Assembly (NCBI RefSeq): GCF_003703975.1
Contig: NZ_QTJY01000017.1
Span: forward strand, 1-64,000
Source of the DNA: Larkinella soli
GTDB taxonomy: Bacteria; Bacteroidota; Bacteroidia; Cytophagales; Spirosomataceae
DNA: 64,000 nt
Reading direction: 5' to 3'
In this document: in pieces, positions 21,650 to 58,713 of the stretch
Layout: every line of letters begins with the position of its first letter
Numbering within the stretch: position 1 is the first letter of the stretch
Translations under genes and position numbers: made by a program
The notes under the pieces: model-generated
The model's database searches: none
Told to the model about the DNA's origin: nothing
The model's input: only the letters and a program-made list of their open reading frames with translations

Positions 21650-21677
21650 CGAATTTCGAATGCTATTTCGGAGGTGG

Positions 21678-26842: not shown

Positions 26843-26856
26843 ACGTAAAGGGGAGG

Positions 26857-33254: not shown

Positions 33255-33313
33255 GGCTTACAGGCAGGGTACAACCAGCTTTCCAAATCATTTTTCATTT
33301 AATCCATTCTTCA

Positions 33314-35708: not shown

Positions 35709-35717
35709 CTGCTTTAA

Positions 35718-35791: not shown

Positions 35792-35823
35792 AATTCACTT
35801 CACTTAAAGCACTTGCCAGAACT

Positions 35824-37664: not shown

Positions 37665-37730
37665 TGTAAAGTTGCGTATTTTAACATTGATTAAGGCATT
37701 ACACCAAAAGTAAAGCAAAAATTGTACACT

Positions 37731-39810: not shown

Positions 39811-39812
39811 GC

Positions 39813-40268: not shown

Positions 40269-40394
40269 AGGTGAAATTCGGGGATGAATTGACTCTAAAA
40301 AGATACGAAAAAAGGGCGAATAATTCGCCTAAAAAGTGGGCCGTTTCCAAGGTTAAACCATTAATAATCAGTATATTTAAATCAAAGGAATACC

Positions 40395-40619
40395 ATGAGC
40401 GAAGAAGAAAAACTCCAGACCTTAGCGCAGCTGAATCCCGCCGATATGGAGGCCGAGCGCGCCCGGCTGATCCAAATGATTGACGATGCCCTGGGCGAGG
40501 ATGCCGACATTCCACCTTCCGATGACTGGGACGGGCTGATCATCCTGGAAGATGACGTGATCAACACGGCCATTCTCAAAGCGAACCAGAACGCCACCAA
40601 CGATAACCGCCATGCCTAA
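40395..40619 (+). CDS. Small acidic phage protein
   Basis: This is a 74-residue protein with an N-terminal helix (MEAERARLIQMIDDALGED) and an acidic middle (PPSDDWDGLIILEDD). It overlaps the tape-measure start by 8 nt, so it is translated with it. In tailed phages a small protein before the tape measure often acts as a tail assembly chaperone; that role is only suggested by position. Confidence 0.65.
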   Translation: MSEEEKLQTLAQLNPADMEAERARLIQMIDDALGEDADIPPSDDWDGLIILEDDVINTAILKANQNATNDNRHA

Positions 40620-43600: not shown

Positions 43601-43983
43601 GCTTTGAGATCGTCGAGCGCCGAGATTCAAACGGCGGACACCTGACCTACCAACTGGCGCCGACCCGGCAGCTAACCTACCTCCACCGGCACGACAAGGT
43701 ATATACCCACGAAGAGTCAAAGCGAATGATTCAGGTTAACCGGGAGATTGCCGACAACATCCGGCAGAGCGCCCCGCTGCCCTGGGAGTCCTCTACGGAT
43801 CGGCGATACACCTCGGCAGATATGGCTCAGGCGGTCGAGTCCGGAATGCGGAAGGCGATGAAAGATCAGCCGGTGCAGGAAAACCACTGGGATGATCTGG
43901 GGTACCGGCGCTACCTGCGGGATAAAAACCAGCGGACTCAGTGGCTCAACAATTGGTTTTCCTTCCCCAAGTCCAAGCATTAA
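40612..43983 (+). CDS. Phage tail tape-measure protein
   Basis: This is a 1123-residue protein. Long coiled coils occupy residues 1-200. A tape-measure core follows, with hydrophobic patches (AGAYLGFTRFAGSIITLQAI near 235) and the lysozyme-like entry GTTLEGAETRRIWDSIIVAG. Extensive Lys/Glu/Ala-rich coiled coil covers about 530-930. A hydrophobic C-terminal segment lies near 950-985 (AAFEIILNTAVGATNAASKA). Length and layout match siphovirus tape measures, which set tail length. Its presence without recognisable tail-tube genes is odd. Confidence 0.87.
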   Translation: MPNPIRPEEVIDIPGLKAGLSDLQQQMAGWLTESKRLFGELVATSKDLQGELGRTRVSLASEGDLRKLAEYDQRVDQLSARLRENQKAAKAVEAAEHQLQTVQQSLTQRTEELMKRYAELNGTSAKVVAEKKRIAKELVSLTANFEQLGRAVNTSKGSVSETANTYSALSRRLAEMRSQLRSLDGAFDANTGKLNQNNRAAVQLAASIQRTDTALKRMDATMGVHGRQVGSYQQTIAGAYLGFTRFAGSIITLQAILGEGKAIVGAAIQMESLNAALKAVHTSAEEAAISERFIKEEASRLGAELGSTADAFITLAGATRGTTLEGAETRRIWDSIIVAGRGLNRTNEQIQRAIIATGQVFSKQKVQAEDLVGQLAEAMPGALQILAKELGVTVSQMLEMGQKGQLLADEVLPKLADGFQKTFGDKVAENSDRTASNLNRMRNALTELRATVFNDTDANSWFSRLLKAETEEMKDWIYIFQNWSKLSVLRGDLGGDNVRRLRQAEAAKRKPIDDFRKMNAEQRNQAILKASSSSLTLGNQFDAASGDQKKIIGQRMADAQRLVDEMVKIDLKMLGEEKERAEEVAKKRAAMQAEQREKDQKKQAVKDRQALAERERKLRDALQKIEAGNDLDESRLRANFEAGLMTEAEYIDKRYEMQVEGARKELRLLVESGKANTDEYNKAQKKVTDALANAQKDRKQMEDKAWRKAVEAVRDGLRVIDDQTQTGLTKRLADLEKAYVKAEQNIERQVAQRQMTEEAGQKAVFDLRNKYLDDIAKATSEAYDEDEKRSTELLDKLAASAKGETQIKEAAALKAEEIEKNQLDKQKDAADASVKITEDAEKQKTKITKDEAEKRQALEEMAWQLASQAVTSYLEITGANRQQDIERLEKQKDYELSLVQDNEEAKTQIEQRYNERLRVLRRRQAEADKAQAAFEIILNTAVGATNAASKAVTLPLVPFIIALGALQLGTVLAKPIPEFFKGKKDGYEGPGYVGDRGFEIVERRDSNGGHLTYQLAPTRQLTYLHRHDKVYTHEESKRMIQVNREIADNIRQSAPLPWESSTDRRYTSADMAQAVESGMRKAMKDQPVQENHWDDLGYRRYLRDKNQRTQWLNNWFSFPKSKH

Positions 43984-44053
43984 CGCTCACCTATAGCTGC
44001 TTGCTTGCATATAGGGCGACAAGTCAGTATGATTGTCCGACCAAAGAAAACGA

Positions 44054-44662
44054 ATGGCTACATCGTCCGACTCTCGCGGCTGTCTTCCCTGGATTGCGTT
44101 GGTTATTGGGGTAATAAGCATTTTTTACATTGTTCGCGGCTGCGCGGACCTCACACGGTCAGATGACGACTTTGGTTTACGGGAGCCTGTGGCCAGGGCG
44201 GAACGGCCCATTTCCCCAAAAAAGAAATCGGTTCGCCTTTCCGTTTTTAAGGATGTTGAAGCCCTGAAAGGGAAGCTGGAAAAGGTCGGGGTAGGTAAAT
44301 TGAGAACCTGGCGCTATGATGGTATGGGGTGGATGTCTGCGACGGATTTCTATAACATTGGCCCAACCGGCACCAGCGGCCTGGCTAACAACCTGGCAAT
44401 CTATCTTGAGTCTGAATCCGAGGACTACGTAAGAACGGTTAAGCTCAACCTGAACGATTACGACAATTTGGGCTACCCCGTGATGCCAGCAAAGGCAAAA
44501 AGGCTGTTTCAGGCTATTGGACTTCCGGTACCTGACGGTTTATTGGCGGCCCTACGAAGAGGGGAGGATTTCAGCTACCTCGGCGACCATTACAAGGTTG
44601 AAACCCGGCTCACCAACAACAGCAAAGGCGGGTACTACCGATTGATTATTACCAGCAATTAA
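44054..44662 (+). CDS. Membrane-anchored hypothetical protein
   Basis: The start was set at the ATG at 44054 rather than an upstream TTG, giving 202 residues. One membrane segment (about 14-28, PWIALVIGVISIFYIV) is followed by a soluble C-terminal part with mixed alpha/beta content. It might be exported or anchored in the host membrane. No family was recognised. Confidence 0.55.
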   Translation: MATSSDSRGCLPWIALVIGVISIFYIVRGCADLTRSDDDFGLREPVARAERPISPKKKSVRLSVFKDVEALKGKLEKVGVGKLRTWRYDGMGWMSATDFYNIGPTGTSGLANNLAIYLESESEDYVRTVKLNLNDYDNLGYPVMPAKAKRLFQAIGLPVPDGLLAALRRGEDFSYLGDHYKVETRLTNNSKGGYYRLIITSN

Positions 44663-44745
44663 CCAGCTGGTTCACCTTCAAGTTTAGGAGAGAGGCGACG
44701 GCCTAAAAGCCACCTTGCCTTTCGAAAAAAAGAAAGGTCATTTTT

Positions 44746-44785
44746 AGCCCCGTAGAGACACGATCTCCTCGGGGCTTATTCTTAT
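44746..44785 (+). terminator. Intrinsic terminator
   Basis: AGCCCCG (44746-44752) pairs with CGGGGCT (44770-44776), followed by the T-rich TATTCTTAT. It ends the transcript covering the tape-measure and membrane-protein genes. A CCTTTC/GAAAGG hairpin lies just before it. Confidence 0.6.
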
Positions 44786-44835
44786 CCAAAAATCAGAAGA
44801 TCGGCCAACATTTGGCACTTTTGGCGACATTGTGG

Positions 44836-45336
44836 CTATTGGTTGCCTAAAAGCTTCTTTTTTTGCTTATCGTACTCTTCCTGAGTGATCGCTCCAGAGT
44901 CAAGCAGTTGCTTGAACTTCAACAGTTCATCGGCTACTGATCTGGAAGCGGTCGGCTTTACGGGCAGGCTGTTGATTCGGCTGATCTCCCCCGCATCGAT
45001 GGCCTGAACCAAATCAACCAGATGGTTGAAGCCGCCTGGGTTGATAAGGGCAAAGTATTGCTCACCACGCTTCTTATTTCCGTACAAGTCGACCCGTTTG
45101 ATGACAAAGAACCTGCGGCCGTTGGAACTGTGCAGGGGGGTCAGGGCCATCGATAAAAGGTTGGGTTTCGCCATGATGTACTTAAAATCGCCGTTGGGCA
45201 TCGTACCGGAGACCAGGTGTAGCGTATCGCCGGCTTTGATGGTGAAGCCGTTGGAGAGCGTAACCGGACCTTCAATGGTTTTTTGTCCGAAAGCTACCAG
45301 AGGAAAAAACAGGAGCAAGCAAAGGTAATTTTTCAT
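44836..45336 (-). CDS. Secreted protein with SHOCT-type C-terminus
   Basis: The start was set at the internal ATG at 45336, giving 166 residues with a good signal peptide (MKNYLCLLLFFPLVAFGQ). The middle is a small beta-rich domain (GPVTLSNGFTIKAGDTLHLV). The end matches a SHOCT motif (LLKFKQLLDSGAITQEEYDK), a short helical element found at the ends of many bacterial proteins. It is oriented against the phage genes and looks like a host-type or cargo gene. Confidence 0.7.
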   Translation of the reverse strand: MKNYLCLLLFFPLVAFGQKTIEGPVTLSNGFTIKAGDTLHLVSGTMPNGDFKYIMAKPNLLSMALTPLHSSNGRRFFVIKRVDLYGNKKRGEQYFALINPGGFNHLVDLVQAIDAGEISRINSLPVKPTASRSVADELLKFKQLLDSGAITQEEYDKQKKKLLGNQ

Positions 45337-45458
45337 GGTGTTGGATTTAGAACAACAATGATACCTAATCTGGAAATAGGTTGAGATTAATAATCCATGT
45401 ATGGCAAAGTGTTGCATTGCATTGGCCAATATTCTATTTTAGGTAAAAACTTTCAGGA

Positions 45459-45656
45459 ATGGCAAAACAAACTACATCTGTCCGCTTGCCGGCATCATCG
45501 CTTAAGCAAATCCAAGACCTTTCTGAGCTTTTTCAGGAGAGCAACAGTAAGATAGTGGAAAGGGCGGTCAGTATGCTTTATGAGAATCGGGAATCCGCTC
45601 TACGTCAATACGTTGAGGAGCGGCTGAAGAAATTCGAGGAAAGCAAGAACAAGTAA
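45459..45656 (+). CDS. Ribbon-helix-helix protein
   Basis: This is a 65-residue protein. The first strand TTSVRLPASSLKQIQDL and the following helices (NSKIVERAVSMLY) match the CopG/Arc RHH fold. The C-terminal helix is basic. Such proteins are dimeric repressors or antitoxins. No toxin gene is adjacent, so a repressor of the phage element is more likely. Confidence 0.7.
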   Translation: MAKQTTSVRLPASSLKQIQDLSELFQESNSKIVERAVSMLYENRESALRQYVEERLKKFEESKNK

Positions 45657-45912
45657 GGGGAGTCTTTGCCAGACGTCCGGACAAATAACTTTGTCCAAAA
45701 AAAGCAACACAAAGTATTGCTTTTAGTCTAACGGTATAGTATATTCGCTTATTCTAATTGAGGACGGGCCAAAGGTTGCATAGTACCGAAGAGGTTGCCC
45801 GACACAATAACCCCGAAATCAATTAGGCCACAAAAACAGAAAACCCGTGTCGCAACTTGCTTGGCGGCGGAGCGGCACGGGTCCAGTATCAACCTTAAAC
45901 TTTCGTTTAACG

Positions 45913-46563
45913 ATGACGGAGCAAAGTAACGCACCGGTAAGGGATTCTGCAACCCTTTCGGGGACAAATGAGCAAACGGCAGGACAAACGGCTGTAGAAA
46001 CTTCTGGCAGCCCGGCCCCTGCCTCCACAGAGAAGGCCGCTGATCCTCAGCCCACTTTCCGCAACGACCGCGAGAAGGAAGAGTACGCCAAGAACAACCT
46101 TCCGGAAGATTCCTTCATCGTTGGCCCGGTCGAGGATCACCCCATCATTATCAACTCGGCTACCATGTTCTTTGCGATGCTGACCAATGACGCCACGCTG
46201 GCCCGGTTGATGGAGTGCGTGTCGACCTGGTACGCCTGCTATGCGGCTTCGGATGATTGGGAGTCCTACGGCCTTCAGAAGGATGAGTCGGCCCGGCAGT
46301 TTGCTTACCTGATAGAGTTTTTGGCCCAGATGAGCGTTGAGGTAGCCCGGAAGAAAAAGCTGCTTGCGACGCAGAAGGCTGAGGAGAAGGTGACCTTCTA
46401 CAAGGACATGATCGGCCGATGGTCGGGTGTCGTTGACACCTACAAAGAGACGCTCGACGACTACAAGCAGATGAATGAAGCTCTGATTACTCAGCTGAAG
46501 CAAATGCGGGATCTGTACGACCCCCAGGCGCCTTCGGACTCAGGCGATAGCACTCCGGCCTGA
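45913..46563 (+). CDS. Hypothetical coiled-coil phage protein
   Basis: The start was set at the ATG at 45913, giving 216 residues. The N-terminal ~60 residues are Thr/Ser/Pro-rich. A conserved-looking region follows (SFIVGPVEDHPIIINSATMF), then long helices (VARKKKLLATQKAEEKVTFY) likely to coil. No family was recognised. It may be a structural or regulatory protein of the element. Confidence 0.6.
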   Translation: MTEQSNAPVRDSATLSGTNEQTAGQTAVETSGSPAPASTEKAADPQPTFRNDREKEEYAKNNLPEDSFIVGPVEDHPIIINSATMFFAMLTNDATLARLMECVSTWYACYAASDDWESYGLQKDESARQFAYLIEFLAQMSVEVARKKKLLATQKAEEKVTFYKDMIGRWSGVVDTYKETLDDYKQMNEALITQLKQMRDLYDPQAPSDSGDSTPA

Positions 46564-46577
46564 CCCGTTCACGGGTA

Positions 46578-46609
46578 AGCCGCCTCGGCTCTAACGGGCT
46601 GAGGCGGCT
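46578..46609 (+). terminator. Hairpin after coiled-coil gene
   Basis: AGCCGCCTCGGC pairs with GCTGAGGCGGCT with one wobble pair and a short loop. There is no long T-run, so it is a weak terminator or an mRNA-stabilising stem. Confidence 0.45.
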
Positions 46610-46656
46610 CCTGCCTACCAATCCCTTCTCCCACATCTTCCTAACATCGAAGCATT

Positions 46657-48105
46657 ATGCAACTTCCCGCATACATCCTGACCAGCGGCAACACGGCCGC
46701 CGTTGACCTTCGGCCCCTCTACGAACGCATGGGCCTCAGCTCTCGCCACTTTGCCGAGTGGTTCCGCACCTATGAGAGCCGGCTCAAGCCCGGCACCGAC
46801 TATGCACCCTACTATCAAGGGCGGCACTTTCACTGTATGGCCAGCCTGCCGGCGACCTTCGCCCTGCTGAACGCGGTGACGATCATTCGTAACCCCGGTA
46901 TCTGGCCGGAGCTGAAGGCCGTCGAGGCCCAGCTGATCGCTCAGGGCTTTCAGCTGGAAGGCGTTGACCTGGCCGGACTCTCAAGAGCCAGAAAGGCCGA
47001 TTTTAGCCCCACCCTGGCCCCGGATTCGGGCAGTTCAGACAATGTGCCGTCAAATGAAGAAGACCCCGCTCAAAGCCCGGATTCCGCTGGCAAGGTGATA
47101 ACCTCGGGACCACTGCCGATCTATGTGATTGGAGGGAGGGCGGCCGTCAAAGCCGAAGACCTGTATGCACGGCTTTCCCGGCCCGGCGCTAACGATGTGC
47201 TGCACTGGACCAGCTACCGTATTAAGCAGCTGGGCCTGATCAAGGGCAAGCACTTCCTGGATTACAAAGAGGGGCGGCATGTGCATTACCTGCTCAGCCT
47301 GGAAGCGGCCATTGAGATCACCCGATTCAAACCGAAAGCCCGGGCGAAGGAGATTGAAAGCTACCTTTCGGACTTCAAGCGGTTTCTCAAAGCGCAGAAG
47401 CTGCCCGCCACGGCTAAGCTCTCCGACTTCCTTCACTTGAAACCCGGCGAGGTAGTCACCGGACAACCCGAAGTCACGCAGGCCACTCTGTTCGATCAGC
47501 AGCCGCCCCTGATCCGGCCTGAAGCCCCTCAGACGGCTCTGGCTTCACCCTCTCCGGCAGAAACCACACCAGAGACCGAAAACAGCCCCGCAGAGCCGTC
47601 ATCGATCGCAGCGGAGGAAGATAGTCAGCCGGAGAAGAAAACGCCGACAGCGGCTGAATTGCTGGTGCAGATGGCCCAGATGGTGCTTCAGTCCGCGCAG
47701 CTGCTGGCTGATCTGGAACGGCGCCAGCAGTTCACCGAAACGACTACCCGCCAGATGGTAGCGATTGGTCAGCAGGCGGCCCTGCAAACGCTCGGCCTGC
47801 ACAAAGGGGATGCCCAGCCACCGGCCAACACGCTTCGGGATCAGATCCGCCACCGGGTCAACCAGCGCGCCCGCGCTACCCGGGAGACGCACGAGGACAT
47901 TTTCAAGGAAATCTACAGCCAGCTCTTCTACACCTACGGCATCAGCATTTCAGACCATACCCGGCTGAAAGACGAGACGCATCTGGGCTGCTGCGAACGG
48001 CTGGGCTTTCTGGATAAGGCCTGGGCCATCGTCGACAGCAAAGCCTTCAACGCCTACCGGGAGAAACTTGCACCTATGCAGGAAGGAGGGCCGGTCAATG
48101 GATAA
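46657..48105 (+). CDS. Tandem AntA-type antirepressor
   Basis: This is a 482-residue protein with two consecutive domains that both resemble AntA/AntB antirepressor modules. The first (about 15-75) reads VDLRPLYERMGLSSRHFAEW and ends with a GRHFHCMASL strand. The second (about 150-220) reads VKAEDLYARLSRPGANDVLH and ends with a GRHVHYLLSL strand. A Pro/Glu-rich linker (about 280-330), a coiled coil, and a C-terminal helical domain (about 395-470, DQIRHRVNQRARATRETHED) follow. Antirepressors relieve phage repressors. The tandem duplication is unusual. Confidence 0.7.
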   Translation: MQLPAYILTSGNTAAVDLRPLYERMGLSSRHFAEWFRTYESRLKPGTDYAPYYQGRHFHCMASLPATFALLNAVTIIRNPGIWPELKAVEAQLIAQGFQLEGVDLAGLSRARKADFSPTLAPDSGSSDNVPSNEEDPAQSPDSAGKVITSGPLPIYVIGGRAAVKAEDLYARLSRPGANDVLHWTSYRIKQLGLIKGKHFLDYKEGRHVHYLLSLEAAIEITRFKPKARAKEIESYLSDFKRFLKAQKLPATAKLSDFLHLKPGEVVTGQPEVTQATLFDQQPPLIRPEAPQTALASPSPAETTPETENSPAEPSSIAAEEDSQPEKKTPTAAELLVQMAQMVLQSAQLLADLERRQQFTETTTRQMVAIGQQAALQTLGLHKGDAQPPANTLRDQIRHRVNQRARATRETHEDIFKEIYSQLFYTYGISISDHTRLKDETHLGCCERLGFLDKAWAIVDSKAFNAYREKLAPMQEGGPVNG

Positions 48106-49783: not shown

Positions 49784-50116
49784 TTAAACGGACGTAGGGA
49801 AAGATTTCTTAATAAACGGCTTTGAATCTTCGGGAATGGCCTGTATGGGGACCTGATTCCCGCAACAATGGCGAAGCTGCTCCAGAATGACCCGGCCCCT
49901 TCCATCGGGCAGCGTCAGATCCGTCACGATCAGAGCGGGTTGATGAGTGGCCAGCAGGGTTTCGGCCATGCGAAGCGTACCGGCCAGCCGCACCTGGTGG
50001 CCGGCGCGTTCCAGATAGATCTTCAGCATCTTCTGTTGAATGGAGTCATCTTCTACTAAGAGAACGTCGTGTTGAATACAAGTATTAGGGACGGAGAACC
50101 CCTGATCTGACGCAAA
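49784..50116 (-). pseudogene. Receiver domain without start codon and with a shortened end
   Basis: The frame reads HDVLLVEDDSIQQKMLKIYL, then RAGHQVRLAGTL and PALIVTDLTLPDGRGRVILE, clearly a REC domain with its acidic pair and phospho-acceptor Asp. Upstream, the frame has no ATG back to a TGA; the first Met lies after the acidic pair. The part between the phospho-acceptor and the conserved Lys is shortened, ending PEDSKPFIKKSF. It is most likely decayed. Confidence 0.6.
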
Positions 50117-50187: not shown

Positions 50188-50637
50188 TTAGGCTTGTCCG
50201 TCCTGGCCGGGACTGGCATAATCCGTTCTCCGTCCTCCCGGGCTTTCCAGCCATTGAAGACGAATCGATTTCAGCAAGGTCTTGTAGTCCTTCAACCGGT
50301 TCGGCTTGGGCAGATAAGCTGCGGCTCCCGCCTGCAGATAGGCGCTGACGTTGATATCGGCTTCATAGCCCGTCAAAATCAATACCGGGATGGGCCGGAA
50401 CCGGCTCTCGGCCTTCAGGCGGACCAGCAACTCCAACGAGGTTTCTTCCTGCAGGTTCACATCCAGGATGATCAGCAGCGGCCTGGAATCGGCTGCCTCC
50501 AGAAAATTCCAAGCGGCCGCCACCTGCTCCTGACAATGCACGTCAAAGTCTGGCCATTCCAGGCGGGCAATGGCACCTAACAATTCGCACTCTTCGGGAT
50601 CATCATCGACCAGCAATACATACTTTTTTGGTTCCAT
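50188..50637 (-). CDS. Stand-alone receiver protein
   Basis: The start was set at the internal ATG at 50637, giving 149 residues that align with the paralogue at 53226. It is one CheY-like REC domain with acid pair D11/D12, phospho-acceptor D59 (LLIILDVNLQEE), T89 and K111 (YLPKPNRLKDYKTLL). After the domain comes IRLQWLE and a disordered tail. It has no output domain. It is divergent from the pseudo-receiver at 50816, the same arrangement as 53226/53924. Confidence 0.87.
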   Translation of the reverse strand: MEPKKYVLLVDDDPEECELLGAIARLEWPDFDVHCQEQVAAAWNFLEAADSRPLLIILDVNLQEETSLELLVRLKAESRFRPIPVLILTGYEADINVSAYLQAGAAAYLPKPNRLKDYKTLLKSIRLQWLESPGGRRTDYASPGQDGQA

Positions 50638-50727
50638 CGATGCCACAAGGATTGGTTTTGAGCGATTGGGGGCCAAAAATAAGAAGCAGCAAAAATAATT
50701 ACCGAAATCTTACGGAATGGTAAGCCG

Positions 50728-50767
50728 ACGTATACTCTTGCCATGCTTTCTATAAGCCTTATCTTTG
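50728..50767 (+). promoter_or_regulatory. Bacteroidota-type promoter with upstream ACGTATA element
   Basis: ACGTATACTCTTG (50728-50740) supplies a TTG -33 box, followed after 19 bp by TATCTTTG (50760-50767). This matches the TTG-N19-TAnnTTTG consensus. The same extended element occurs at 53770 and 55998. It drives the pseudo-receiver gene at 50816. Confidence 0.75.
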
Positions 50768-50815
50768 CAGGTTACTTTCTCTCCACCCCCACTGGTCGTC
50801 TCCCTATCTGAAACT

Positions 50816-51238
50816 ATGAAGAAAACCGTGTACATCATCGAGAAGGACCCGGTCCTGGGCGAGCAGGTACAACGCTGTCTGGAGGAAGACTTTGACCTGG
50901 AAAAGGTCATCCGGTTCGACGATTTAGCGGCACTGGAGGCGCACCTTACTGAATCTGAATCCTGGCCCTCGCTGGTGCTGGTGGATCTGGATCCCCAACC
51001 TCAGGCCGTCGTGTCGGCGGTGGCTCAGCTGAAAGCCCATCCGCTGTGGAAGAAGGTGGTCGTGCTGGGTTGGGGTGAGAAGCTATCGGCCGAGCAGATT
51101 CACCAGGCGTATCTGGCCGGCTTCGGCTCGACCCATGACAAACCGGTGGACGGTGGCCAGAGGATTAGGATGATCCAACAAATGGCCCAGTACTGGCTGC
51201 ACACCTCTTCCCTGCCCCATGGCCTAACCGGGCCTTAA
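50816..51238 (+). CDS. Divergent receiver-like protein (pseudo-receiver)
   Basis: This 140-residue protein follows the REC pattern from YIIEKDP (8-12 region) through LVLVDLDPQPQ to HDKPVDGG. The phospho-acceptor D57 and K109 are kept. The acid pair is E9 and D11 with Lys between, and the Thr/Ser position is Gly (VVLGWGE). It is probably altered in phosphorylation chemistry. It is paralogous to the protein at 53924 (shared LKxxPLWKxxxxxGW core) and ends with AQYWLHTSSLP. Confidence 0.75.
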   Translation: MKKTVYIIEKDPVLGEQVQRCLEEDFDLEKVIRFDDLAALEAHLTESESWPSLVLVDLDPQPQAVVSAVAQLKAHPLWKKVVVLGWGEKLSAEQIHQAYLAGFGSTHDKPVDGGQRIRMIQQMAQYWLHTSSLPHGLTGP

Positions 51239-51305
51239 TCACAGCGGCCACCATCGGCCGCTGTTTACAAATTTGGAAACATAGTTGATGCCCTTGCCTT
51301 AGGAC

Positions 51306-51752
51306 TTAACGGGTTTTGGAAGGCTCCCGGCCGAAAGCCGCGCTAATGCCTCCATGACGCGACAGCCAATAGGTATGAACGGTATGGGTGATCCGGTCCA
51401 GGCCTGGAACCGAACTGGGCTTGACAAAGTAGGTCGTCACGCCTAACTGATGACTTTGCAGTATGTGATCCGGAAGGCTCGAATCAGTCATCACAAAGAT
51501 CGGGACAGTCTGGGTTTTGGCATGAGCGCGTAGCACCTCCATCGCTTCCAGGCCCGTCATGCGAGGCATATTCAGATCCAGAAAAATCATATCCGGCTTT
51601 AGGGAAGTCTGCTCGAGGCAGTCCATCAGGTCCTGCCCATTGGCAAACACGCGGATGGCACTGGCCGGAAATCGTCGGTGGAGGCTGCTTTGCAGCAAGA
51701 GGACATCGTCCTCATCATCTTCTACCAGACAGATCAGTGCCGGGTCATTCAT
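51306..51752 (-). CDS. Stand-alone receiver protein (Rcp1/CheY-like)
   Basis: This is a 148-residue REC domain with full catalytic set: E11/D12 (ICLVEDDEDD), D59 (MIFLDLNMPRMTG), T89 (VMTDSS), K111 (YFVKPSS). After the domain comes VHTYWLSRHGG and a basic tail. It is of the type often paired with phytochrome or hybrid kinases; none lies nearby. The D59 context differs from the neighbouring LDLYLP type. Confidence 0.9.
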   Translation of the reverse strand: MNDPALICLVEDDEDDVLLLQSSLHRRFPASAIRVFANGQDLMDCLEQTSLKPDMIFLDLNMPRMTGLEAMEVLRAHAKTQTVPIFVMTDSSLPDHILQSHQLGVTTYFVKPSSVPGLDRITHTVHTYWLSRHGGISAAFGREPSKTR

Positions 51753-51956
51753 GGGAATGGTGTTTTAGAAGGAACCGAGTGCTAAATAGACAATTATTAT
51801 TCCATTCATCCTAACCGGCATAAATACTTTCCTATTTTTTGAAAAAATAGTTTTCCCTTACCAAACCGTAAGTAGTCGGAATTTGGTCTCCATTCGTAAG
51901 TCAGCCCGATAGCAAGAGTACCAGTCGGTGACCAAAGTCTAAAATTTCGGACAACC

Positions 51957-51982
51957 GGCAGAAATATTTTACAAGTTTTTGC
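51957..51982 (+). promoter_or_regulatory. Conserved leader element before coiled-coil miniprotein
   Basis: The segment 51957-51982 contains GCAGAAATATTTTACA followed by TTTTTGC. A near-identical segment occurs at 55297-55323 before the paralogous gene. Its conservation outside the coding region suggests a promoter or regulatory site. Confidence 0.5.
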
Positions 51983-52011
51983 TTATTTACGGCACCATGT
52001 TTCGACTGTCC

Positions 52012-52206
52012 ATGAAAAAGCAAACTAAAACGAAAGAACAATTGCAGCGCCAGATCGAAGAGGCCAAAGCCGCCGAGAAGCAGGCTCAGGAGCAGATCCG
52101 GCACTGGAAAAAGGAAGAGAACAAAAACAAGGTCGAGCGCCTGCAGCGAGAAGCGGAGCTGAATGAATTAAACGATCCTGACCTGGAAGCCGGGGCGGAA
52201 CCGTAG
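52012..52206 (+). CDS. Coiled-coil miniprotein, copy 1
   Basis: This is a 64-residue, highly charged single helix with the core EAKAAEKQAQEQIRHWKKEE followed by NKNKVERLQREAEL. Coiled-coil formation is likely. The layout is loosely DUF3847-like, but the usual RTHRLI motif is absent. It is paralogous to 55348, with high DNA identity in the core, and is followed by a perfect GCCCGG terminator. Function unknown. Confidence 0.65.
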   Translation: MKKQTKTKEQLQRQIEEAKAAEKQAQEQIRHWKKEENKNKVERLQREAELNELNDPDLEAGAEP

Positions 52207-52283
52207 ACAGAAGACCTAACGGGAGAGATTCGATACGGACCCAGTCCGAATGCCTTCCAATTCATTCGGGAGAAAAAAGCACC

Positions 52284-52313
52284 AGCCCGGCTCTTTGAGC
52301 CGGGCTTTGTTTT
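52284..52313 (+). terminator. GCCCGG-type terminator, perfect
   Basis: AGCCCGGCTC (52284-52293) and GAGCCGGGCT (52297-52306) form a perfect 10-bp stem with a 3-nt loop, followed by TTGTTTT. It ends the coiled-coil gene transcript. Confidence 0.87.
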
Positions 52314-52453
52314 ACCGCCCTCATCGACCAACCGGGCCTGTCCTAGTGGAATTGAGCTTGTGACTCAAAAAATGCTTCATAGAACTTAAACATAAGGAAA
52401 GGGCGTAAACAAACGCCAGTTTTCCTATCTTAGCACCTCTTCTGGCCTTTACC

Positions 52454-52927
52454 ATGAACCCTCCGTCAAAACGAGCCGCCAAGGCTGAACCCAGGTTGTT
52501 GGTGCTAATCATTGAAGACAACCAGGACCATTGGTTATTAATGGAAACGGCACTCATTGCCTCCTATCCCCGGCTTACGCTGTCCCGGGTCGCTTCTAAA
52601 GCCGAGGCAGTGGCTTACCTCAACCAGCGGCAGGTCTCCGGCTTTCTGCCCGACCTGATCTTATTGGATCTCTATTTGCCCGACCGTCAGGAAGGTCTGA
52701 GTATGCTGGAGACGATACGATCCATGCCCTCCCCGATTCAAGTGTTACCGGTAGTGATCTTCAGTGCTTCGGCACGAGAAGAGGACATTAAGGAATGTTA
52801 TCAACAGGGAGCCAACTCGTATATCATCAAACCCCATCAGGCGAAAGAATGGCCGGAGTTTATGGCCATTCTGCTGGATTTCTGGGGCAGAACTGCCACT
52901 TTAGTTCAAACCGATTTCATAGATTGA
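52454..52927 (+). CDS. Stand-alone receiver protein, LDLYLP type
   Basis: This is a 157-residue REC domain with residues E21/D22 (LIIEDNQDHW), D72 (LILLDLYLPDRQEG), S104 and K126 (YIIKPHQAKEW). The end LLDFWGRTATLV is shared with the paralogue at 54437. The LDLYLP signature and the extra Arg-Gln-Glu-Gly after it also appear at 3761 and 56138, defining a subfamily. Downstream the reading frame stays open for ~34 codons after the TGA, which may be chance. Confidence 0.88.
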   Translation: MNPPSKRAAKAEPRLLVLIIEDNQDHWLLMETALIASYPRLTLSRVASKAEAVAYLNQRQVSGFLPDLILLDLYLPDRQEGLSMLETIRSMPSPIQVLPVVIFSASAREEDIKECYQQGANSYIIKPHQAKEWPEFMAILLDFWGRTATLVQTDFID

Positions 52928-53182
52928 GGCGGCTTTCTCTAAATAGGTGGGCCAATCAATTGCTGCCATGGCGTTTGCAGTTGATGAAAGGAGAAAGCAA
53001 AGGGCTGGCCATCGAAAACGTCCGGTGGTAGATCCATGTAATATTCCTGATCTTTATACTACACCCTCGGCTCTGGAGTACGGGCAGCGCTATGGTTGGG
53101 AGGTAGACGATACTACCAAAACAAAGGTCGGATGCCAGACCTGGAACTATTAAACGCAATACACGACAGAGATAGAGTATGG

Positions 53183-53212
53183 GCCCGGCTGCATTGCGCC
53201 GGGTTTGGTTTT
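53183..53212 (+). terminator. GCCCGG-type terminator
   Basis: GCCCGGC (53183-53189) pairs with GCCGGGT (53198-53204) and is followed by TTGGTTTTT. It would close the transcript of the receiver gene at 52454. Confidence 0.65.
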
Positions 53213-53225
53213 TATGAATCCTAGT

Positions 53226-53675
53226 CTAAACCGCTCCATCCCCTTCTGACGGATGAGGGGCTAGGGAGGCACCAGATCCAACCTCCAGCCACTGCGTCCG
53301 AATGGCCATCAGCAGCGTTTTATATTCTTTGAGTTGAGCCGGCTTATGCAGGTAGGCATTGGCCCCCGCCTGCAGAAAAAGCTCCACATACCTCTGGTTG
53401 TCTGAGCCCGTCAGAACCAGCACCGGCACTTTTTTAAAGCGTGGATCGGCTTTCATTCGGCCCAGCAGTTCCAGGCTGGTTTCCCCTTGCAAGTTGACAT
53501 CCATTAATATCAACGCGGGCAGGAGCTTGGCCTTCTCCAGAAAGTCCCAGACCTGCTGCGAGGTCTCCAAACACAAAAGCTCATAGTCGGGCCACTGAGA
53601 CTTCAGGATCAATAAAAGCAGTTCACATTCTTCCGGGTCATCATCGATGAGCAGGATCTCTTTGTTCTTTTCCAT
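53226..53675 (-). CDS. Stand-alone receiver protein, paralogue of 50188
   Basis: The start was set at the ATG at 53675, which aligns with the start of the paralogue, giving 149 residues. REC residues are D11/D12 (LLIDDDPEECELL, identical to the paralogue in DDDPEECELL), D59 (LILMDVNLQGE), T89 (VLTGSD), K111 (YLHKPAQLKEYKTLL). The tail is short and Ser/Pro-rich. It is divergent from the pseudo-receiver at 53924. Confidence 0.88.
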   Translation of the reverse strand: MEKNKEILLIDDDPEECELLLLILKSQWPDYELLCLETSQQVWDFLEKAKLLPALILMDVNLQGETSLELLGRMKADPRFKKVPVLVLTGSDNQRYVELFLQAGANAYLHKPAQLKEYKTLLMAIRTQWLEVGSGASLAPHPSEGDGAV

Positions 53676-53769
53676 CCCCTTCAATTCCTTGCCTTGTTTT
53701 TGCCGTATTAATCATATGAGAAAGGAAAGGTTTTCGGGTCTCGGAGAAACCTACTGACTGGCCTCGACA

Positions 53770-53809
53770 ACGTATACTATTGACAATAAGCCGCTGGGGC
53801 CTATCTTTG
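53770..53809 (+). promoter_or_regulatory. Bacteroidota-type promoter with upstream ACGTATA element
   Basis: ACGTATACTATTG (53770-53782) is followed after 19 bp by TATCTTTG (53802-53809). Spacing and both boxes match the promoter at 50728, including the bases upstream of the -33 box. It drives the pseudo-receiver at 53924. Confidence 0.75.
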
Positions 53810-53923
53810 CCGGTCCTTCCCAGCCGCCGGGGGCCATCGTTTTGGGCCAACGGCAGTGCTCCTCTAGGCAGGAACACTTCGGCAGGGTGTTAGCCAGTTA
53901 ACCTGTACGATTCTTTTGGAGCC

Positions 53924-54358
53924 ATGCCCCATCGTCTGTATATCATCGAACCGGATCCGGCTCTGGGGTCTACTCTCAACCAGAGTCTGCCGGCCGAGTA
54001 CCCCGCCGTGGAAGTAGCGGTCTTCGACGAGCTGCGGAAAATGGTCGATTGGGTCATCCTGACCGACCACTTTCCCTCCCTGCTGCTGGTGCATCTGCAG
54101 CCGCACCCTGAACGGCAAATGGCCGGCGTCAGCCGGCTGAAAAACGATCCGCTGTGGAAGCCTTGTATCTTCATTGGCTGGGCCGGGTCGCTCTCGTGGA
54201 CCCAGGTCAGTCGGGCGTATCATTCCGGCTTTCATTCGGTCCACCAGCTGGACACGGCCCTGCCCCAGGGCCTCAAGCCCATCCTCGACTACTGGTTGAC
54301 GCTGCCTCATCTGCCGCTGCTGAACCAGGCTCATGGACCGAGTTGGTCCAAAGATTAA
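53924..54358 (+). CDS. Pseudo-receiver lacking the phospho-acceptor
   Basis: This 144-residue paralogue of the protein at 50816 shares YIIExDPxLG, PSLLLV, the LKxDPLWK core and the FIGWAGSLSW region. The position of the phospho-acceptor is His57 (LLVHLQPHP), the second acid of the pair is shifted, the Thr/Ser position is Gly, and the conserved Lys is not present. It cannot be a conventional phosphorylated receiver. It may bind partners constitutively. Confidence 0.78.
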   Translation: MPHRLYIIEPDPALGSTLNQSLPAEYPAVEVAVFDELRKMVDWVILTDHFPSLLLVHLQPHPERQMAGVSRLKNDPLWKPCIFIGWAGSLSWTQVSRAYHSGFHSVHQLDTALPQGLKPILDYWLTLPHLPLLNQAHGPSWSKD

Positions 54359-54436
54359 CGATCCATTAAAAATCAGGAAGTTACAGTAAGAGGGCAGGAA
54401 TTTGTCTACCTTTGGGCGTCCCTTACCGTAACGACC

Positions 54437-54910
54437 ATGAACCGCCGGCTAGAACACTCCAATACTGCCGGCATAAAACTGGCGTTGCTGATCATTGAGG
54501 ACAATGAGGAGCAGTGGCTGCTGATGCAGGCGGCCCTGAAAAACGCCTCTCCTGAGCTGACCCTAACCTGGGCCGCCAGTCAGGCCCAGGCCCTGACTTA
54601 CCTCCAGCAGCAGCAGGCACTGGGCTACCTGCCTGATCTGATCCTACTGGATCTCTACCTGCCCGAGCGTCAGACGGGCCTGGATCTGCTTCAAACGATT
54701 AAAAGCAGTTCCTATCCCCTGCCCCTGTTACCGGTGATTGTCTTTAGCCAGTCGGCCCAAAAGCAGGACATCCAGGCATGTTACTGGCAGGGGGCCAACT
54801 CCTATATTACCAAACCGCTACGAGCTCAGGAGTGGGCAGACTGCCTGACGATTCTCCTGGAGTTCTGGGGCCGGACCGCCTCGAGAGTGCCTACCCGCTA
54901 TCTGAATTGA
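54437..54910 (+). CDS. Stand-alone receiver protein, paralogue of 52454
   Basis: This is a 157-residue REC domain, same length as its paralogue, with E21/D22 (LLIIEDNEEQWLLM), D72 (LILLDLYLPERQTG), S104 (VFSQSA) and K126 (YITKPLRAQEW). The ending LLEFWGRTASRV matches the paralogue. A TACCTTTG box at 54407-54414 is a -7 candidate but no TTG lies 19 bp upstream. After the TGA the frame stays open for 75 codons. Confidence 0.88.
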   Translation: MNRRLEHSNTAGIKLALLIIEDNEEQWLLMQAALKNASPELTLTWAASQAQALTYLQQQQALGYLPDLILLDLYLPERQTGLDLLQTIKSSSYPLPLLPVIVFSQSAQKQDIQACYWQGANSYITKPLRAQEWADCLTILLEFWGRTASRVPTRYLN

Positions 54911-55138
54911 CCGGCCCGCCTTCTAAGGGTTCGGACGAATCAGCAGCGGCCACCGGCTCTGCAGGGGCTGCTTTTGCTAGAGGTGCACGCTGGCGAGTAT
55001 CAACCCGTTTTTCATCTACCCATAGAGCAGGTCACCGGCCAATTCCACCGAGTCGAAGGAAAGCGTCAGGTTCAACCAGGGCAAAGGCACCTCACCGCGC
55101 CATCCGTTGATTGTCAGGATCATGAGAAATCTACTTAG
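54911..55138 (+). other. Protein-like frame continuing past the receiver stop
   Basis: In the same frame as the receiver gene, 75 codons run from its TGA to a TAG at 55136-55138, without an ATG. The middle reads EVHAGEYQPVFHLPIEQVTG and QRHLTAPSVDC, which looks coding. It may be the remnant of another gene or of a C-terminal extension. I recognise no family. Confidence 0.3.
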
Positions 55139-55296
55139 GGGGACACTGGAAAATCCTTCAAGGGAAACCTAAGTAGGACAGCAAGCAGCTTTATCACCGT
55201 TACGCACCTATTTTCATCAAATCATTTCCTGCCGCGAGGATCAGCGCCCGGTATCCGTGGAAAAAAAGAACAAAAGTTGGTAACAGGGGGTTGACT

Positions 55297-55323
55297 TGCA
55301 GAAATATTTTACAGAAATTTTGC
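55297..55323 (+). promoter_or_regulatory. Conserved leader element before coiled-coil miniprotein, copy 2
   Basis: GCAGAAATATTTTACA followed by TTTTGC repeats the element at 51957. Here a TTGACTTG segment lies just before it. Confidence 0.5.
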
Positions 55324-55347
55324 AAGCACAATCAATCACCGCTGGTC

Positions 55348-55554
55348 ATGGAAACGCACGGCAAGAAGGAAGAGGAAATATTAAAGCAGATCGAAGAGTC
55401 CAAAGCCGCCGAAGAGCAGGCCCAGGAACAAATCCGCCACTGGAAGAAGGAAGAAAACAAAAACAAGGTCGAACGCCTGCAGCGAGAGGCCGAATTAGAA
55501 GGAATAAGATACCCAACTCCTGAAAGAGATCCGAATTCAGAGGGAAACCACTAA
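55348..55554 (+). CDS. Coiled-coil miniprotein, copy 2
   Basis: This is a 68-residue charged helix. The core ESKAAEEQAQEQIRHWKKEE and NKNKVERLQREAEL are nearly identical to the protein at 52012; the ends differ. The start ATG at 55348 was chosen because it aligns with copy 1; an upstream in-frame ATG at 55291 lies before the leader element. Likely forms homo- or hetero-oligomers. Function unknown. Confidence 0.65.
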   Translation: METHGKKEEEILKQIEESKAAEEQAQEQIRHWKKEENKNKVERLQREAELEGIRYPTPERDPNSEGNH

Positions 55555-55574
55555 TTTTCCTGTGTCCGGCTCCG

Positions 55575-55826
55575 TTAGGCCTTTTCAAGGATCTGTCGCC
55601 AGTGCTGCTGAAGCCGCAGCATGGGTTCCTCGAAGGGTTGCCCGTCGAAGATTTCCGGGGGCAAATCCAAACATAGGCCCCGATCCTGTACCTGCACCCC
55701 GGTAAGTACTAGTCCGGTCCGGACTAACCGGTTGACAAAATCACAGCCGCGTTCGATTTCGTCAGTAGCATGGATAAGATTGCAATACACCAACCCTTCT
55801 TTGGTGCCGTTGATAATCACAATCAT
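55575..55826 (-). CDS. Small hypothetical protein
   Basis: The start was set at the ATG at 55826, giving 83 residues. The sequence starts with a beta strand (MIVIINGTKEGLVYCNLIHA), continues through FVNRLVRTGLVLTGVQVQD, and ends in an amphipathic helix (MLRLQQHWRQILEKA). A compact alpha/beta fold is likely. The frame upstream of 55826 overlaps the conserved promoter at 55998 and looks non-coding. Family not recognised. Confidence 0.55.
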   Translation of the reverse strand: MIVIINGTKEGLVYCNLIHATDEIERGCDFVNRLVRTGLVLTGVQVQDRGLCLDLPPEIFDGQPFEEPMLRLQQHWRQILEKA

Positions 55827-55997
55827 AAGGTTGGATAGGATAACTTTAAGCCTGACTAGGATAGCTATACGTCTGTTCGCTAATTTTTTGTATTGGGTCC
55901 ACAAAGGCAAGTAAAAATTATTTTGTAACCCTTTTGATTGGCTTCTCCCCTTCAAATATTGTTCCAAACAACGGCTATTCTTTCCAGGGGGTTGGTT

Positions 55998-56037
55998 ACG
56001 TATAATCTTGACACTAAATATGAAGTCTTTACCTTTG
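55998..56037 (+). promoter_or_regulatory. Bacteroidota-type promoter with upstream ACGTATA element
   Basis: ACGTATAATCTTG (55998-56010) is followed after 19 bp by TACCTTTG (56030-56037). It is the third copy of the extended promoter found at 50728 and 53770 and lies 100 bp before the receiver gene at 56138. Confidence 0.75.
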
Positions 56038-56137
56038 AAGCAGTAAACGGGACGCTTGAAGGGGCCCAGATTCTGCCTTGTCAGGTTGCGGCTCACTCTC
56101 CGGCTGGTTCATACCTACCTTTTTAATTCCTTAACTC

Positions 56138-56599
56138 ATGAAGAAGACGGGATTCTTACCGGCGGTACTGATCATTGAGGATGACGCGGATCACCGGAAG
56201 ATCATCCAATCGATGCTCGAGCAGAGCCACCCAACGCTTCAACTGGTTTTTGCCTCCTCGGATGGAGAAGCCCTTTCGCTGTTGGAGCACTGGCGATCGG
56301 CTGGCACCTTCCCTCAACTTATTCTGCTGGATCTGTACCTTCCGGAGCGGGAAACGGGCTTTCAGCTGCTGCAGACGTTCAAGACGCTGCCACTGCCGGT
56401 CAAATCGGTGCCTGTGGTGGTCTTAAGCCATTCGAATGATGCGCAGGAAATCTGGCGGGCTTATCACCTGGGAGCCAACTCTTTTCTGGTCAAACCTCTT
56501 CAGTTCCATGACTGGCAGCAGAACCTGCAGCTGCTGGTGGAATACTGGTTACAAACGGTCGCCGTAGTGGATCCCAGTCAATCGTTTGAGGGGTGGTAG
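56138..56599 (+). CDS. Stand-alone receiver protein, LDLYLP type
   Basis: This is a 153-residue REC domain with residues E14/D15 (LIIEDDADHRKII), D65 (LILLDLYLPERETG), S97 (VLSHSN) and K119 (FLVKPLQFHDW). It belongs to the same subfamily as 52454 and 54437. The short tail has no output domain. It is driven by the shared promoter at 55998 and followed by a GCCCGG terminator. Confidence 0.88.
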   Translation: MKKTGFLPAVLIIEDDADHRKIIQSMLEQSHPTLQLVFASSDGEALSLLEHWRSAGTFPQLILLDLYLPERETGFQLLQTFKTLPLPVKSVPVVVLSHSNDAQEIWRAYHLGANSFLVKPLQFHDWQQNLQLLVEYWLQTVAVVDPSQSFEGW

Positions 56600-56955: not shown

Positions 56956-57215
56956 TCGACATGGGTGTCGACAAGCCCGGGCATTTGTCCAAATTTGGAC
57001 GGACGTTACCCCGGGGTATTTTTCACGAGGATTCCTGAAAAATCAGAGCAGGGGCCGAAATCCGGATTTCTGCATAGCCACTCGACATATATGTCGAGTG
57101 CTGACAATCAAGTCGATACCAATGGAGTAATCTTCTTATACCCCGCGTGGCAAGAGTTCAAAGTCCGATTTTCGGACCCTGCTTACCCAAAGGGTGTCCA
57201 CTGATCTGGACACCC
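56956..57215. repeat. Cluster of about nine different dyads in 260 bp
   Basis: Dyads in order: TCGACA/TGTCGA (56956-56971), GCCCGGGC (56975-56982), GTCCAAATTTGGAC (56987-57000), TACCCCGGGGTA (57007-57018), ATTTTTCA/TGAAAAAT (57018-57043), GAAATCCGGATTTC (57057-57070), a 22-bp palindrome with centre TATA (57079-57100), GTCCGA/TCGGAC (57163-57177) and GGGTGTCCA/TGGACACCC (57192-57215). All arms are perfect and each sequence is different. This density is far beyond the neighbouring DNA. No convincing gene covers the region. Confidence 0.8.
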
Positions 57216-57221
57216 CTGCAC

Positions 57222-57543
57222 CTATGAGGAATGGGCTTCCCCGAAGGTAGTCAGGTAGTCGTCAATGGCTGTCAGCAACGCCGGATCGGATAGGTCGGAC
57301 TCGCTGTTGCAAAAAAACTGCCAGCCCTCCCGGCAAGGCATTAAGGAGAGATACGCCCCCCCAGGTTGACAAGGTAAGCTGAAAACAGTCCTTCCCTATT
57401 TCGAAGCTGCCGCGTTCAAAGCCCAGCCGGACAGCCAGATCTTGCGCCTGGGCATTGGTAATCTTTCTAAAAATCATTGATTGATGAAGAGGGTGTCCAC
57501 GAAATTGGACACCCTTTGTTCTGGCGAAGGTATAACGATTCAT
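57222..57543 (-). pseudogene. Small gene with a +/-1 frameshift in a G7 tract
   Basis: Translation from ATG 57543 (TAATG overlap with the upstream frame) reads MIFRKITNAQAQDLAVRLGF and GKDCFQLTLSTWGG, then hits a run of seven G residues (57356-57362). The long frame beyond it looks unnatural. With one G fewer it continues YLSLMPCREGWQFFCNSESD and DPALLTAIDDYLTTFGEAHS to a TAG at 57222-57224. This looks like a real gene broken, or switched, at the homopolymer. The GGGTGTCCA dyad lies inside its 5' part. Confidence 0.5.
57491..57514. repeat. GGGTGTCCA/TGGACACCC dyad
   Basis: A perfect 9-bp inverted repeat with spacer CGAAAT has identical arms to the dyad at 57192 (spacer CTGATC). It overlaps the 5' end of the frameshifted gene, between two possible start codons, so it could control it. 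Confidence 0.75.
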
Positions 57544-57921: not shown

Positions 57922-58713
57922 CTAAGAGGTTTGATTAGCCATTTCATACTTTTGAGCATTAAAGTATAAGTCCAGTGCGTCTGCCGTCGCATTGGTGAAG
58001 TGGAAGTCAGTGTGGCGGATATGCGAAGCTAATCCAAAGCGTTTGGCTACTCTGTTCCGGTTCCAGCGGTTGAGGAACTCGTACGGCCAGCGAAGCGTCC
58101 AGCTTGGTAGTCGGTGCTGCAGGTCAAACCAGTCGTAACGTGTTAGTTGTTCAACAGTTCGCTTATTCTCTGCGTAATATGCCTTCACCCGTTCATTTCC
58201 CGTTACTCCACCGGCCTTTACTTTTACAAATGACCTTCTCAGCAAGGTCATTAACTCTTTATCCGTATACTCTCTAACGTGCCAAGGATTGCGCGTTAAA
58301 GAATGAAACCGGTTAATTGTCGTGAGCAGCAGCTTACCTCCGGGCTTAAGTACTCGGTGCATTTCCTCCACCAGCCGTTGATCCTCCCGAACGTGCTCAA
58401 TTACTTGGAAGCACAATACAAAGTCATAAAAGTCAGTTGGCAACTCTGAAAGAGGAGGGATCCGCATGGTTATGAATGAACCTTGTGGATGTTCCTGTTG
58501 TAAATGGTTAATGAGTGCCTTGTTTTTATCAATGCCTGTGTAGGACTTGACTACTGGTAACAACGTTTCAATACCCCGCCCCCAACCGCATCCCACCTCT
58601 AATACGTCCCCACCGATGCAAGAAGCTGCATGTACATATGGAAAGAGAAGCTGCTGATGTAGCGGGTTATCAGATGGAATGGTAGCGGAGGTGATTTCAG
58701 TGGAATTGTACAT
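57922..58713 (-). CDS. Class I SAM-dependent methyltransferase
   Basis: This is a 263-residue protein. Motif I is VLEVGCGWGRGIE (about 36-48), with an acidic residue at the end of strand 2 (YTGIDKNKALI), FDF-like strand 4 in YDFVLCFQVIEHVREDQRLV, and a post-motif VLKPGGKLLLTTINR. This is the Methyltransf_11/UbiE-like fold. The substrate cannot be told; VIEHV is typical of small-molecule or glycan-related enzymes. Monocistronic. Confidence 0.88.
   Translation of the reverse strand: MYNSTEITSATIPSDNPLHQQLLFPYVHAASCIGGDVLEVGCGWGRGIETLLPVVKSYTGIDKNKALINHLQQEHPQGSFITMRIPPLSELPTDFYDFVLCFQVIEHVREDQRLVEEMHRVLKPGGKLLLTTINRFHSLTRNPWHVREYTDKELMTLLRRSFVKVKAGGVTGNERVKAYYAENKRTVEQLTRYDWFDLQHRLPSWTLRWPYEFLNRWNRNRVAKRFGLASHIRHTDFHFTNATADALDLYFNAQKYEMANQTS

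Follow-up and report, generated by a model that had tools for sequence, protein, structure and literature searches.

In Rcp1-type response regulators, the gene of the partner phytochrome kinase lies alongside that of the regulator, and the protein forms a stable dimer via its C-terminal region. BldM/WhiI and CmrR/CmrT are reportedly DNA-binding response regulators. A heterodimer has been shown for BldM/WhiI and proposed for CmrR/CmrT, and the 2025 review that reports this separates receivers from pseudo-receivers by five residues (DD1, DD2, D, T and K) and calls the activation and inactivation of bacterial pseudo-receivers a mystery (PMC12632262, in excerpt). Here we describe an island of stand-alone receiver genes in Larkinella soli. 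It lies in a window, meaning the whole stretch of DNA analyzed, that comprises the first 64 kb of contig C16 (134,891 bases) of the 6.92-Mb genome (coded G000, with further loci on contigs C2, C3, C10, and C21; relatives are coded G002, G006, etc.). No described cluster of bare receivers of such a kind was found in the literature searched, and no paper in it combines Larkinella with response regulators. In our judgement it is an even call whether these genes are the main cluster of a lineage-specific family of Rcp1-type single-domain response regulators that has grown by duplication, is co-regulated, and has pseudo-receivers acting by binding.

The island spans 6.4 kb (50188-56599). Six of its stand-alone receivers keep the full set of five catalytic residues, and two are degenerate. 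The names used below denote RECm-type receivers (A1/B1), pseudo-receivers (A2/B2), miniproteins (A3/B3), a third receiver set (A4/B4/C), and a single receiver (X).

50188..50637, minus strand: A1, RECm-type stand-alone receiver, five residues intact (PF00072 53.6 bits, 57% to B1)
50816..51238, plus strand: A2, pseudo-receiver without DD2 and T, with D and K kept (Pfam, alignment, residue check)
51306..51752, minus strand: X, stand-alone receiver, catalytic residues intact (Pfam, residues; relative on C3, 43%)
52012..52206, plus strand: A3, predicted helical miniprotein of 64 aa, no known family (nothing above cut-off)
52454..52927, plus strand: A4, stand-alone receiver, catalytic residues intact (Pfam, blastp, residues)
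53226..53675, minus strand: B1, RECm-type stand-alone receiver, catalytic residues intact (Pfam, blastp, residues)
53924..54358, plus strand: B2, pseudo-receiver without DD2, D, T, and K (predicted receiver fold, pLDDT 89.3)
54437..54910, plus strand: B4, stand-alone receiver, residues intact, 78 bp behind B2 (Pfam, blastp, residues)
55348..55554, plus strand: B3, predicted helical miniprotein of 68 aa (63% to A3 in alignment)
56138..56599, plus strand: C, stand-alone receiver of the A4/B4 set, residues intact (39-43% to A4/B4)

PF00072 (Response_reg) exceeded its cut-off at 50188(-), 51306(-), 52454(+), 53226(-), 54437(+), and 56138(+), and was the sole family above cut-off in these six intact receivers, which are 148-157 aa long and carry no output domain. 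The protein at 50816(+) reached 17.6 bits, under the cut-off of 30.2, and no Pfam family matched that at 53924(+). By blastp, identity was 57% for A1/B1 (E 5e-46), 35% for A2/B2 (E 7e-26), 53% for A4/B4 (E 8e-62), and 68% for A3/B3 (E 2e-23; DNA 89% identical over 107 nt), with C as the third member of the A4/B4 set at 39-43%. An earlier note on this DNA had counted at least six intact receivers and two pseudo-receivers in about 6.5 kb, sorted the genes into four paralogous sets, and paired 50188/50816 with 53226/53924 position by position. All of its open reading frames proved open at their coordinates, the counts were borne out by Pfam and the five-residue check, and blastp agreed with both the pairing (57% and 35%) and the sets (53% for 52454/54437, 68% for the miniproteins). 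Its label "pseudo-receiver" fits 50816 and 53924, although the former is only half degenerate, its acceptor Asp and Lys being kept. The start of A1 is most likely the ATG at 50637, not 50676.

Tandem duplication is evidently the cause of the clustering of receivers. A simple tandem copy of one block fails as a description, the miniprotein and the A4-type gene being swapped between the two halves. Beside the island lies a broken receiver (window 49784-50065, minus strand) that covers PF00072 positions 14-77 of 111 at 26.4 bits (cut-off 30.2); tblastn with A1 carries it in frame to 50065.

In an alignment of island and related proteins, DD1, DD2, D, T/S, and K were kept in 6/6 intact receivers. 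A2 has lost two of the five (DD2 and T), whereas B2 and a third pseudo-receiver of the genome, located on C21, have lost four (DD2, D, T, and K). By the aspartate-less receiver criterion, the phospho-acceptor position is occupied by His in B2, by Asn in the C21 copy, and by the original Asp in A2. Judged by its residues, B2, whose acceptor Asp is gone, cannot itself be a phosphate sink. The three pseudo-receivers are 33-41% identical and share the signature GW, W78, and GFxSxH, as well as a Trp at T-1 read off the alignment; rows L056 and L071 of the residue table were visibly misaligned, and nothing was drawn from either. B2, the only pseudo-receiver modelled, was predicted to adopt a receiver fold (pLDDT 89.3), and Foldseek matched the model to 246 PDB entries at E <= 0.001, the leading ones being receivers (3cnb first; 6xvu, the Deinococcus bacteriophytochrome regulator, second; RcpB and Rcp1 within the first ten).

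Nonsynonymous (dN) and synonymous (dS) divergence by NG86 was 0.34 and 1.45 for A4/B4, 0.24 and 2.06 for A3/B3, 0.48 and saturated for A1/B1, 0.72 and 1.02 for A2/B2, and 0.58 and 1.36 for B2 and the C21 copy. The intact receivers and the miniproteins thus look constrained, the pseudo-receivers less so. In a neutral simulation, the probability of meeting no stop was 0.004-0.09 per pseudo-receiver at 0.25-1 substitutions per site. Because neutral drift would bring stops, the three open frames argue against plain decay, which the earlier note had named as fatal to its own proposal. Congeners also hold degenerate stand-alone receivers (e.g., G002:C244:180672, without DD2 and K), so degeneracy as such is not special.

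Further copies of the family lie elsewhere in the genome. The third pseudo-receiver, at C21:61490, is 41% identical to B2; RECm is absent there, and an A4-type receiver lies ~5 kb downstream. One RECm-type receiver, at C10:7505, is convergent with an A4-type receiver (C10:7.0-7.9 kb), and another, at C3:230297, is 41% identical to A1; a pseudo-receiver accompanies neither. A third miniprotein, at C3:313728, is convergent with an X-type receiver sharing 43% with X. No relics of the missing partner were detected by tblastn at C21 and C10. Among the copies found, the divergent pair of receiver and pseudo-receiver occurs twice, only in the island. Its adjacency is not a conserved unit, because the pair is split in the C21, C10, and C3 copies.

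The copies are, however, linked by shared promoter/operator DNA, which is absent from the earlier note. A2 and B2 are both preceded by ACGTATACT-N-TTG-N-CA and, after it, the Bacteroidetes -7 box TATCTTTG; the C21 pseudo-receiver has the same upstream element, with TAACTTTG. The common form, GTATA-N3-TTG-N19-TAnnTTTG, precedes each of the three pseudo-receivers as well as one receiver (C); in flavobacteria, TAnnTTTG serves as the -7 box of sigma-A (PMC9723704, in excerpt). A second element is the palindrome CTTAC-N6-GTAAG. The sites in the window are as follows.

50709..50724, no strand assigned: palindrome CTTAC-N6-GTAAG, upstream of A1 (~72 bp) and of A2 (92 bp)
50730..50767, plus strand: A2 promoter, GTATACTCTTG-N19-TATCTTTG (genome-wide pattern search)
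51857..51872, no strand assigned: palindrome CTTAC-N6-GTAAG between X (105 bp) and A3 (140 bp)
53772..53809, plus strand: B2 promoter, GTATACTATTG-N19-TATCTTTG (genome-wide pattern search)
56000..56037, plus strand: C promoter, GTATAATCTTG-N19-TACCTTTG (looser pattern)

All promoter, leader, and palindrome patterns were designed after viewing the sequences and then matched. The first promoter pattern matched A2 and B2 only, and was widened after viewing C21 and again after C. GTATAC-N2-TTG-N15..22-TAnnTTTG had three matches in the whole genome, 3/3 upstream of pseudo-receivers, and its backward control had none; in 2.09 Mb, the looser GTATA form gains a single further site, the one ahead of receiver C. 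The independent tests are the lack of any other genome-wide match to the middle pattern and the lack of matches to the widest pattern and the palindrome in 1.18 Mb of fresh sequence. Across the three pseudo-receiver promoters, 21/24 core and -7 columns are invariant, compared with 14/116 around them, the columns having been chosen after the fact; they are kept while the three proteins share only 33-41%.

The palindrome has a 5-6-5 arrangement, which we take to be the operator geometry of the CRP/FNR type; this is a likeness, not membership. Two more copies lie outside the window, one ahead of the C21 pseudo-receiver, at the 21-bp offset to GTATAC also seen at A2, and one 71 bp ahead of the C10 RECm. 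In total, four exact sites were present in 2.09 Mb of the genome, 4/4 at family promoters; 392 kb from relatives, in stretches that had been picked for other purposes, contained none. At L093 7985-8002 (G000:C10), a second palindrome, CTCTTACCATGGTAAGAG, adjoins the N6 site that precedes the C10 RECm.

Several observations weigh against a co-regulated, functional set. The palindrome was first spotted by eye and afterwards counted; chance alone would place ~2 exact copies in 2.09 Mb, so that its weight lies in position, not number. Of 200 letter-shuffled palindromes, 14 likewise reached at least four sites in 915 kb, and allowing one mismatch gave 13 sites versus 27 expected, nine of them elsewhere. 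B2 and C are without the palindrome, X/A3 and the C10 RECm are without the promoter, and neither element is found at A4, B4, the C3 RECm, the C10 and C21 A4-types, or the third miniprotein and its X-type neighbour. No regulator gene was identified for the shared elements. Finally, the dN/dS of ~0.7 for A2/B2, at high dS, is a weak sign of constraint.

In agreement with the earlier note, the island genes showed no kinase, phosphotransfer, or output domain. The nearest histidine-kinase gene identified is of the LytS type (61922-63097), ~5.3 kb past the last receiver and beside a LytTR regulator. A PF02518 search of the genome listed only C16:89720 on the window's contig; this search was not exhaustive, the LytS-type gene having been missed. 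The genome contains 111 HATPase_c matches, which supports the earlier view of bare receivers with no local kinase identified and possible kinases elsewhere. At least 150 receiver domains are present (the best 150 of 183 candidates were scored, all matching), 46 of them in open frames of <=205 aa, here called small receivers. When distances were taken to the 111 HATPase_c matches and the window's LytS gene, a HATPase domain lay within 4 kb of 19/46 small receivers, that is, 0/6 in the island and 19/40 elsewhere. Given 46 in the genome, the probability of five other small receivers within 6.3 kb is ~1e-9 per gene; within 7 kb, each island receiver has five such neighbours and every other small receiver counted has at most two. 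The next group of small receivers, at G000:C2:589-613 kb, consists of seven in 24 kb plus one large HATPase protein.

The miniproteins have a leader motif of their own. The pattern CAGAAWTATTTTACA had three matches genome-wide, 3/3 upstream of the three miniproteins, and none in the control. One long helix is predicted at residues 3-53 from the alignment of two sequences, whereas family-profile searches gave no family above cut-off. No match to the miniprotein was found in the viral contigs searched, and an Rfam scan of 48-58 kb gave no match.

51959..51975, plus strand: leader motif CAGAAATATTTTACAAG upstream of A3 (genome pattern search)
52284..52306, plus strand: terminator-like hairpin after A3 with a 10-bp stem (14 such sites vs 10.1 in shuffles)
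55299..55315, plus strand: leader motif CAGAAATATTTTACAGA upstream of B3 (genome pattern search)

The earlier note had looked to related genomes for conserved divergent pairs. Our search covered 222 genomes of Spirosomataceae, with the best 17-18 candidates at most scored per genome for the pseudo-receiver and RECm, and the pseudo-receiver type was absent outside L. soli. Although 14/222 genomes passed 1e-13, the own three copies scored 233-242 bits and the others <=66.5 (best candidates). The RECm search passed 1e-18 in 28/222 genomes, L. soli included, the best outside match scoring 105 bits versus 295 for the island copies; no pseudo-receiver was present in the 3.4 kb examined around it. 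The miniprotein was found in 1/222 genomes, L. soli alone. A looser first search with the pseudo-receiver had given a match in 24/59 genomes. The matches in eight congeners (32-36%) have a receiver-bearing protein of ~1160-1190 aa as neighbour, and the majority are closer to C or X than to A2; the two that were read properly in the residue table, L053 and L055, keep all five residues, so the matches were not counted as members of the type. A contig profile search with the pseudo-receiver returned six weak relatives (23-36%), two of them Larkinella, and the plasmids searched with B2 gave no match. Both Larkinella relatives are akin in DNA to congener G006, which is 77% identical to Larkinella humicola over 1.8 kb.

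To the right of the island, G+C drops to 43%, versus ~58% in a sample of the genome, and a 331-bp segment (57188-57518) with 28-nt terminal inverted repeats, 82% complementary, resembles a miniature transposable element. The methyltransferase gene at 57922-58713 (minus strand) is the second copy of a gene present in 8/8 congeners searched. It was tried as an anchor for right-flank synteny; in 8/8 congeners, the matches carry the neighbours of the C2:623257 copy, as judged by eye, and are therefore uninformative on the island. At 3761-4591 (minus strand), a LytR-like DNA-binding part (residues 60-115) precedes a receiver of the A4/B4/C type (34-35%), the reverse of the usual order.

How such a set would work can be outlined. 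One transcription factor binding the 5-6-5 palindrome may set the amounts of several family proteins jointly. The intact receivers would take phosphoryl groups from kinases encoded elsewhere and would act through contact with other proteins. The pseudo-receivers would no longer accept phosphate in the usual way; binding is their most likely mode of action, perhaps by dimerizing or competing with the intact receivers, as in cases elsewhere where atypical receivers pair or may act by dose (PMC12632262, in excerpt). Their dose, set by the private promoter, rather than phosphorylation could then be the signal, and the miniprotein may be a helical adaptor. A stronger version, in which the proteins form a private set whose single regulator doses pseudo-receivers that retune the intact receivers as heterodimers, with the miniprotein as adaptor, and which weighs signals from many of the cell's ~100 kinases through receiver-receiver contacts without any output domain, seems to us quite unlikely.

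Ordinary lineage-specific duplication is a real possibility, though one we lean against. Each receiver would have its own distant kinase, the origin would be tandem, and promoter DNA would have been inherited with no joint function. This agrees with the 27/46 small receivers (the island's six included) that are >4 kb from any HATPase domain counted, with the gene order shuffled within the two halves, and with copies elsewhere that are not in a divergent pair. It is harder to reconcile with the retention of 21/24 promoter columns in three copies, versus 14/116 in the surroundings, and with the palindrome between X and A3, in intergenic DNA that aligns poorly with the other promoters.

Phosphate sink, scaffold, and relay, the functions put forward in the earlier note, cannot be distinguished by sequence. 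We consider the sink unlikely in the form in which phosphoryl groups of one or a few kinases are drained off to the intact receivers, with the pseudo-receivers regulating this flow through competition for kinase docking. Six output-less receivers, each with a complete set of catalytic residues, would suit it, and single-domain receiver sinks are known, namely LovR/LovK (PMC5964349, in excerpt) and DifD with the phosphatase DifG (PMC12802240, in excerpt). In these known cases, as excerpted, a kinase acts as phosphatase or there is a phosphatase, whereas none was identified within 5 kb here, and B2 and the C21 copy are without the acceptor Asp.

The window also contains a polysaccharide cluster (9700-29187; initiating sugar transferase, Wzc-like protein, and glycosyltransferase), which adjoins the prophage-like element and the receivers. 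That element (31811-48105) has integrase, terminase small and large subunit, tape-measure, and antirepressor-like genes; a portal or capsid gene was absent among the six proteins tested, and no exact repeat of >=13 bases that could serve as attachment site was found between 29.1-31.8 and 47.9-58.0 kb. Control of the exopolysaccharide cluster (9.7-29 kb) by contact with the receivers, like that of EpsW on the phosphoglycosyl transferase EpsZ in Myxococcus, a published mechanism (PMC12802240, in excerpt), would draw on the initiating sugar transferase (23792-24460) and the Wzc-like chain-length protein, but is very unlikely: the prophage-like element (31.8-48.1 kb) intervenes, the EpsW model gives 26.3-38.7 bits for A1, X, A4, and C (cut-off 200), and the transferase here is a short catalytic domain only (222 aa). 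That the pseudo-receivers are decaying gene copies is highly improbable, for although residues are lost to differing degrees (2/5 in A2, 4/5 in B2 and the C21 copy), A2/B2 dN/dS is near 0.7, and a truly broken receiver adjoins the island, the three frames are open and, at 33-41% identity, share a signature (GW, W78, GFxSxH), the promoter is kept, and B2 has a confident receiver fold.

The favoured reading, a duplicated and co-regulated set with pseudo-receivers acting by binding, does not amount to a new kind of system on present evidence. Its value lies in a graded series of three pseudo-receiver paralogues, from half to nearly fully degenerate, alongside intact paralogues and with a promoter shared across unlinked copies. 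This is a defined set in which dose control and binding between receiver and pseudo-receiver can be tested directly, and an example of output-less receivers multiplying within one lineage.

Compared with known systems, the intact receivers, tested with the RECm profile and B4, have Rcp1, RcpA, and the Deinococcus bacteriophytochrome regulator as their nearest solved relatives; the best structure matches were 1i3c for the RECm profile (E 5e-18) and 6xvu for B4 (E 2e-20). Like Rcp1, RcpA, RcpB, and the Deinococcus regulator, they are single receiver domains of ~140-160 aa. Unlike the Rcp1 group, the island has no phytochrome or kinase identified within 5 kb (open reading frame list by eye, PF02518) and is a lineage-specific tandem set with pseudo-receivers and miniproteins. 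MrrA/LovR and EpsW/DifD share with it the use of output-less receivers, as hubs, sinks, or allosteric effectors (PMC5964349, PMC12802240, both in excerpt); unlike EpsW, A1, X, A4, and C fail the NCBIfam model NF041866 by the scores given above. The pseudo-receivers of Bourret et al. 2025 (PMC12632262, in excerpt) are likewise orphan genes with DD2 and T lost, whereas those of the island's type differ from that set, as excerpted, in that they stand alone as domains, have diverged into three paralogues within a single genome, and share one promoter and a Trp at T-1. BldM/WhiI and CmrR/CmrT resemble the island in that a receiver and an atypical receiver are encoded or act together (PMC12632262, in excerpt), and are unlike it in that the island proteins are without output domain and their partnership is one that we infer.

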